Assembly (NCBI GenBank): GCA_019358945.1
Contig: JAHHIE010000014.1
Location: 1 to 64,000, forward strand
Direction of reading: 5' to 3'
DNA length: 64,000 nucleotides
Source: Stenomitos rutilans HA7619-LM2
GTDB lineage: Bacteria; Cyanobacteriota; Cyanobacteriia; Leptolyngbyales; Leptolyngbyaceae
Shown: piece after piece, positions 20,583-24,649 of the stretch
Layout: each line of letters opens with the position of its first letter
Numbering within the stretch: position 1 is the first letter of the stretch
The notes under the pieces: model-generated
What the model saw: only the letters and a program-made list of their open reading frames with translations
Told to the model about the DNA's origin: nothing
Database searches by the model: none
Program-made: the position numbers and the translations under genes

Positions 20583-20737
20583 AGGCGTAACCAGAAGCTA
20601 GCTGCTCGAAAAACAAATGCATGCAGCACAACACACCGGGATGATACTTCGGTCTAAAATTTGGAGTAGTAATCTTTGAGTGAGCAACACCTGACTTTGA
20701 TAGGATCGTTGCGATCGCTAGGGGAGTGAGAAGACTG

Positions 20738-21289
20738 ATGACAACCCGTAAGCCTGAGCAGCAGGCAAGCAGTAGCAAGCCAACACCATTGAGTCAACGG
20801 GCGGCGATCGCACCCAAAAGTGCCGTCATACCCTCTTTAGCACCCCAATTTGCTTATGCTGCTGGCGATCCACAGGAGGGCAATCTGGCAACACCTATCA
20901 ATAGTTCCAGGCTCACCCGGTGGTTCATCAATCAGCTCCCTGCCTATCGTTCAGGAGTATCTCCGTTTCAACGAGGGCTACAGATTGGCCTTTCACACGG
21001 GTTTTGGCTTTTAGGGCCGTTCGTGGCATTGGGGCCTTTGCGCGATACAGGGTTAGCAATCTTTGCAGGGCTGCTTTCGACGATTGGGGTAATTATCATT
21101 GCAGTGCTAGCGCTCTCGGTTTATGCCGAAAGTTCGCCTCCACCCCCGATCGCAACACTCACGACACCCCAGCCGCCTTCTGAGTTGGGTAAGCCTCAAG
21201 GCTGGCAGGAACTTGCTCACGGTTTTCTATTTGGTGGCCTTAGTGGGGCTGTTTTTGCTGCCGTCTTACTGCTGGTTTACAGACTATAA
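20738..21289 (+). CDS. psaL: Photosystem I reaction centre subunit XI (PsaL), extended form
   Basis: PsaL links photosystem I monomers into trimers or tetramers in the thylakoid membrane. The family core begins AGDPQEGNLATPINSS at about residue 47, followed by three membrane helices. Two features are unusual. About 45 residues precede the core, with no alternative start codon in between. A proline-rich insert (SPPPPIATLTTPQPPSELGK, about 133-152) lies between helices 2 and 3. ATG at 20738 has AGGGGAGTGAG before it. The gene follows psaF-psaJ instead of pairing with psaI. This order, with a loop insert, has been linked to tetrameric photosystem I in Chroococcidiopsis-like cyanobacteria. Confidence 0.93.
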   Translation: MTTRKPEQQASSSKPTPLSQRAAIAPKSAVIPSLAPQFAYAAGDPQEGNLATPINSSRLTRWFINQLPAYRSGVSPFQRGLQIGLSHGFWLLGPFVALGPLRDTGLAIFAGLLSTIGVIIIAVLALSVYAESSPPPPIATLTTPQPPSELGKPQGWQELAHGFLFGGLSGAVFAAVLLLVYRL

Positions 21290-24359: not shown

Positions 24360-24514
24360 GGAGTGAGGAGCGAAACGCCAAGAGAAGTTGTGCTTTGGAG
24401 CTTTGAGCCTTCCCCTCCCAGATGTAGAAGCTAACATTATCGATCACACCACCTTATGGAAGGTTTAAAGTCAGAAAACGTGAATTTTTATAAAAAAATG
24501 TTTGTGTATCTTGC
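24360..24514. other. Gene-free stretch before the candidate small RNA
   Basis: No gene is seen. The last 40 bases are A/T-rich (24480-24500) and probably belong to the promoter of the transcript described at 24527. Confidence 0.5.
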
Positions 24515-24520
24515 TACAAT
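24515..24520 (+). promoter_or_regulatory. -10 box (TACAAT) of candidate small RNA
   Basis: TACAAT is a good sigma-70 -10 box and predicts a start near 24527. No strong -35 box stands out; A/T-rich DNA upstream (24483-24500) could help. Confidence 0.45.
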
Positions 24521-24526
24521 GAAGCC

Positions 24527-24649
24527 GAAACGAGGGAATACTAAAAATTAGTAACCCGCTGTACGTTTGGGAACGCGCAGCTTGTTTCCTCCAATTCGAG
24601 AGAGCAACGTATTCGATTGTTGGACCAGCCCTTGCGCTGGTCTTTTTTT
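24527..24649 (+). ncRNA. Candidate small RNA with three stem-loops
   Basis: The roughly 123-nt interval has no good reading frame but has structure. TACTAA (24539-24544) pairs with TTAGTA (24548-24553). GGGAAC (24569-24574) pairs with GTTTCC (24584-24589). A final 7-bp stem is followed by seven T residues. A -10 box lies just upstream. The genes on both sides are more than 160 bp away. I cannot match it securely to 6S RNA, Yfr1 or Yfr2; Yfr2-like RNAs are worth testing. A leader of the downstream glycosyltransferase is less likely because the terminator lies about 250 bp before that gene. Confidence 0.55.
24623..24649 (+). terminator. Intrinsic terminator of the candidate small RNA
   Basis: GACCAGC (24623-24629) pairs with GCTGGTC (24636-24642), followed by TTTTTTT (24643-24649). 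A textbook Rho-independent terminator. Confidence 0.85.

Follow-up and report, generated by a model that had tools for sequence, protein, structure and literature searches.

The window analysed here is a stretch of 64,000 nucleotides from Stenomitos rutilans HA7619-LM2. It contains a predicted small RNA (sRNA) gene on the forward strand, flanked by genes for NFACT and a glycosyltransferase. A preliminary description, made from the sequence alone, had proposed a stand-alone element with a TACAAT −10 box, an interval of roughly 123 nucleotides with stem-loops, a strong intrinsic terminator and no explanatory open frame, and each of these points was confirmed. The −10 box occupies 24515-24520, the predicted RNA spans 123 nucleotides (24527-24649) with its U tract ending at 24649, and the terminator stem at 24622-24643 was reported by the scan. 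In addition to the terminator, the minimum free energy (MFE) fold contains a 5' hairpin and a central hairpin. The transcript holds no ATG, and the longest frame that any start codon opens in it has 27 codons. The start at 24527 was set by homology, 7 nucleotides past the −10 box, and fits the homologues L114, L119, and L120 from a genus that we infer to be of the Nostoc type. The fold energy of the RNA is −39.7 kcal/mol (z = −3.1), a value equalled by 1 of 200 shuffles, and the 1.6-kb region around the sRNA holds 4 terminator-like sites compared with 1.6 expected. The promoter was not reported by the sigma-70 scan, and no standard −35 box was seen. These sequence features support a conserved small RNA gene that stands on its own, complete with promoter, hairpins, and terminator. 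A psaL gene (PF02605) is found further upstream, at 20726-21286, some 3.2 kb from the sRNA. The elements of the locus are as follows.

24480-24499, + strand: conserved upstream element of the GTGAA-TTTT-AT-ACAAAA type, a possible second-regulator site (homologues compared by eye)
24503-24518, + strand: NtcA-type site TGTG-N8-TACA, overlapping the −10 box (motif in homologues; published NsrR1 arrangement)
24515-24520, + strand: −10 box TACAAT (conserved in homologues)
24527-24649, + strand: predicted NsrR1-type sRNA, 123 nucleotides (blastn, alignment, covariance model)
24539-24553, + strand: 5' hairpin (MFE fold; the flanking G-run/CCC pairs are helix 1 of the covariation count)
24558-24581, + strand: central hairpin, holding the most conserved stretch UUUGGGAACGCGCAG (alignment, fold, helix 2)
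24589-24593, + strand: CUCCA, predicted partner of the nblA Shine-Dalgarno sequence TGGAG at −11 to −7 (pairing analysis)
24598-24604, + strand: GAGAGAG, predicted partner of nblA CTCTCTC at −23 to −17 (pairing analysis)
24605-24609, + strand: CAACG, equivalent of the nblA-contacting ACAACG (C63/C66) in Nostoc NsrR1 (alignments; positions from PMC6166021)
24609-24615, + strand: GUAUUCG, co-varying block, predicted partner of nblA CGAATAC at −31 to −25 (pairing analysis)
24622-24649, + strand: intrinsic terminator, stem 24622-24643 plus U tract (scan; helix 3)

Blastn returned a single match to the sRNA in each of 23 genomes out of 58, the window's own genome included. In the alignment of the 23 homologues, a nearly invariant UGGGAACGCGCAG hairpin is followed by UUCCUCCA, GAGAGAACAACG, and the terminator. 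A covariance model of the 23, built without Nostoc-type sequences, matched 92 of the 388 genomes of the class at E ≤ 0.01, again including the genome of the window; the Nostoc-type family (f32) was matched weakly, in 4 genomes with E values of 0.005-0.01. Elainella saxicola E1 (Oculatellaceae), which we take to be non-heterocystous, was among the sRNA matches with an E value of 1.3e-10. The match in Cyanobacteria bacterium FACHB-63, which NCBI leaves unclassified, coincides in place and score with a member of the window's family. One further genome (G199) apparently carries two sRNA copies (C489:1524-1604 and C688:28-112), which may be an artefact of its fragmented assembly. A wider model, R2, was built from 11 of the 23 sequences and 20 more distant matches, two Nostoc-type sequences among them. 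It lists 155 of 388 genomes at E ≤ 0.3; chance may account for the weak matches. In the family of G332 it matched 32 of 63 genomes at E ≤ 0.1, many of them weakly, and in 18 genomes of other families it matched 2 at E ≤ 0.5. An R2 match in Synechocystis salina (E 1.1) was discarded as a chance match inside what is, judging from its translation, presumably a glycine-cleavage gene.

Covariation in relatives, which the preliminary description had put forward as a check, was found at 8 of 18 pairs as two-sided changes, compared with 3.9 in shuffled alignments, and none of 500 shuffles equalled it. The count was based on the fold of the window's own RNA, and 92.3% of the paired cells in the 23-sequence alignment can pair. 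Because 6 of the 8 two-sided changes fall in the terminator (6 of the 7 stem pairs counted there), the covariation lends modest support to the other helices.

The promoter reads GTG-TATCTTGC-TAC, with TAC lying within TACAAT, so that the motif GTRN8TAC is present at 24504-24517. Of 43 homologues, 39 carry this motif over their −10 box, 22 among the 23 close ones and 17 among the 20 distant ones; by chance it occurs in 145 of 20000 random 35-nucleotide windows. Because the −10 box served as anchor and was picked as a TACAAT-like match, which partly builds in the TAC half of the site, a fairer yardstick was taken from the window itself, where 4 of 33 TACA(A/C)T hexamers, the one of the sRNA included, have GTR 8 nucleotides before them. 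In the Nostoc-type genus an NtcA-type site lies on the −10 box in all 13 genomes. Control by RpaB through an HLR1 element was also considered; its upstream half-site was a poor fit by eye, and it was abandoned in favour of the NtcA site. Further upstream, at 24480-24499 of the window and in homologues, lies a second conserved element of the GTGAAGTTT-ATGACAAAA type, which in L010 includes the 9-bp inverted repeat TGTCATGAA...TTCATGACA. This element may bind the second regulator suspected in the NsrR1 paper (PMC6166021).

The preliminary description had held that, from the sequence alone, the RNA could not be matched with confidence to a known cyanobacterial RNA and had suggested an Rfam search. 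No Rfam family reached its gathering score in the window, the best sub-threshold match scoring 24.1 bits where 50 are needed; with no match at gathering score in Rfam release 15, the family is therefore missed by routine annotation. In the literature, promoter site, length, residues, and target fit the published NsrR1. According to PMC6166021 and PMC7281752, NsrR1 of Nostoc sp. PCC 7120 is 112 nucleotides long (locus 2050703-2050814), with U51, C63, and C66 as the mutated residues. In PMC6166021, an NtcA motif GTRN8TAC overlaps its −10 box, nblA guanines −18 and −21 stand opposite C63 and C66, and homologues are reported from heterocystous strains and from two closely related unicellular strains, with none further away. 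The other published target is all1871.

The comparison with NsrR1 was made by these published properties: length, residues, promoter site, and target. The sRNA is present in 13 of 13 genomes of the Nostoc-type genus, with lengths of 110-113 nucleotides when the start is fixed 7 nucleotides past the −10 box. U51, C63, and C66 are all present in 3 of the 13 RNAs (L114, L119, and L120), a match that was sought after the published residues were known. L119 and L120 have the published length of 112 nucleotides, and L114 has 113. The other 10 RNAs lack one or more of the residues, a mismatch that amounts to one or two nucleotides in length. The nblA leaders of Nostoc-type genomes have G at −18 in 4 of 4 cases and G at −21 in 3 of 4; the exception, with A at −21, is leader L139 from the genome of L119 itself. 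The residue mismatch in 10 of 13 homologues, together with the A at −21 of one leader, lowers confidence in the NsrR1 reading. With that reservation, we consider the RNA very probably the NsrR1 homologue of S. rutilans HA7619-LM2, a predicted trans-acting antisense sRNA.

Like NsrR1 of Nostoc sp. PCC 7120, it has an NtcA site over the −10 box, a single short transcript with a terminator, a conserved core and, by the pairing computed here, the nblA leader near the Shine-Dalgarno sequence as target. The contact itself differs: the RNAs of the window's family would contact nblA via CUCCA, GAGAGAG, and often a third block, whereas Nostoc NsrR1, as described, uses the ACAACG stretch at 58-67. The Nostoc type also shows no 5' G-run hairpin of the kind visible in the window's RNA, and the present RNA, unlike the reported range of NsrR1, extends further, for example to E. 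saxicola E1. NsiR4, as described in PMC6166021, is likewise an NtcA-controlled sRNA in a nitrogen feed-forward loop, but it is induced, not repressed, under nitrogen stress and has another target.

The nblA gene sits elsewhere in the genome (G000:C93), and three blocks of the sRNA are complementary to its leader. CUCCA (sRNA positions 63-67) pairs with nblA −11 to −7, GAGAGAG (72-78) with −23 to −17, and GUAUUCG (83-89) with −31 to −25. In G010, the nblA leader has CTCTCTCATATTGGAG before the start codon, complementary to CUCCAAUAUGAGAG of the sRNA. The third block and its partner vary together between genomes, as GUAUUUGU/ACAAATAC, GUAUUCUG/CAGAATAC, ACGUAGAU/ATCTACGT, and UGUUUUGA/TCAAAACA; the block is absent in G010, G021, G030, and G006.

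The nblA tests used one leader per genome in 20 genomes, and 30 of 43 nblA rows were fetched, leaving out 13. By energy-based scoring, the window's own nblA was not separated from background, with 70 of 300 shuffles and 175 of 400 random windows equalling it. This scoring was uninformative because weak helices chain over long loops. Scores of local complementarity were adopted after both energy scores, so that the positive statistics given here were chosen after two negative ones. With them, the pairing of the sRNA with its own nblA leader was equalled by 3 of 1000 random windows. Cognate pairs were compared with permuted ones, in permutations that ignore the tree of the genomes, and none of 5000 was as good in 16 genomes and 40 of 5000 in the window's own genus of 7. 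For the third block, run lengths of the true pairs summed to 96 compared with 67.8 in permuted pairs, a sum reached by 0 of 20000 permutations (16 genomes), 2 of 5040 in the own genus, and 1 of 20000 when each of 8 genera was represented by a single genome. Another score for this block gave 0 of 20000 and 8 of 5040. Pairing with nblA was weak in some genomes, being equalled by 27 of 300 windows in G005, 29 of 300 in G407, 10 of 300 in G401, and 7 of 300 in G002. Ten further leaders (L142-L151), scored by energy alone, gave no clear pairing.

A search with the complement of 18 nucleotides of the sRNA in 3 genomes returned 19 matches, compared with 4 for the reversed control; 3 of the 19 were the sRNA itself. 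Among the remaining 16, three nblA genes, one per genome, were alone in lying 4-6 nucleotides before the ATG of a recognised gene. Six of the 13 non-nblA matches lay no more than 60 nucleotides from some start codon belonging to a 40-codon frame. Taken as sequence evidence, these results point to the nblA leader as most likely the target in the window's family, with a contact that covers the Shine-Dalgarno sequence itself.

An NsrR1-family sRNA could have another gene as its main target here, with nblA pairing secondary. The highly conserved UUUGGGAACGC loop (24566-24576) takes no part in the nblA pairing, which makes other targets or a protein partner likely, and the loop probably has a partner other than nblA. 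On the other side, the nblA pairing co-varies between genomes, and in 3 genomes no gene but nblA gave a clear match at its start site, although one 18-nucleotide stretch alone was searched. We regard a different main target as rather unlikely, at a probability well short of that of nblA. Much less credible is the reading of the sRNA as merely the 3' untranslated region of the NFACT transcript. The NFACT gene does lie upstream on the same strand at 19 of 23 homologous loci, and the glycosyltransferase neighbour at 14 of 23. The conserved part is, against this, directly preceded by a promoter with a conserved regulatory site, and at the other 4 loci no NFACT match was obtained within the roughly 1.5 kb of flank that was fetched. 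At the Nostoc-type loci, neither NFACT nor the glycosyltransferase was matched (13 of 13).

A divergent form of PsrR1, an sRNA of high-light conditions that represses genes for photosystem I and phycobilisomes, was considered. In the literature, PsrR1 is regulated by RpaB and blocks translation starts; it is a cyanobacterial trans-acting sRNA like the present one, of similar length (131 nucleotides) and layout and of wide cyanobacterial distribution. The two RNAs have, in contrast, no detectable sequence relation, and PsrR1 (RF02701) coexists with the present RNA at separate loci in the same genomes. In G133, PsrR1 is on C105 and the present RNA on C24; in G153, they are at C1:2073710 and C1:1120684, respectively. 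RF02701 gave no match in the window or at L001, L010, L109, and L121, and R2 none at four PsrR1 loci tried. The interval beside hoxH in S. salina is PsrR1 (RF02701, 68.6 bits) and lacks the core of the present RNA; blastn with this interval found matches in 9 of 194 genomes at E ≤ 0.05, three of which (G095, G133, and G153) were confirmed by Rfam. In the window's own genome no PsrR1 was found by blastn, an insensitive search. A HEARO RNA (RF02033, 152 bits) occupies L101:1013-1232, some 250 bases away from PsrR1 and on the other strand. PsrR1 identity was rejected on the differing Synechocystis locus, the Rfam results, and the coexistence of both RNAs, and we give it the lowest probability of the readings weighed here.

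For the preferred NsrR1 reading, a model can be drawn from Nostoc, where, according to PMC6166021, NsrR1 is expressed with enough nitrogen, is partly repressed by NtcA on starvation, and blocks nblA translation. The nblA product dismantles the light-harvesting antenna (phycobilisomes) when nitrogen runs short. With sufficient nitrogen, the sRNA would be made, pair with the nblA mRNA leader, and cover the Shine-Dalgarno sequence; little NblA would be made, and phycobilisomes would stay intact. Under nitrogen starvation, NtcA would occupy the site over the −10 box and lower the sRNA while nblA is induced. The conservation, the promoter site, the published-residue match in Nostoc types, and the co-varying nblA pairing were computed here; NtcA repression, the translation block, and the direction of regulation, taken over from the Nostoc work, most likely apply as well.

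A putative NsrR1-type RNA outside the reported range, with an apparently shifted nblA contact, would be new; a literature search found no title dealing with NsrR1 beyond the heterocystous strains, although this does not prove that none is in print. On balance we lean toward an NsrR1-nblA circuit much older than heterocysts, an ancestral nitrogen-status switch in which co-evolution of sRNA and leader would have moved the contact along the sRNA, from the Shine-Dalgarno sequence and upstream blocks here to ACAACG in Nostoc. If NsrR1 also controls nblA in other lineages, it would be a general means of restraining phycobilisome breakdown after transcription, and aligned sRNA-nblA pairs would offer a natural record of joint change in an sRNA and its target.
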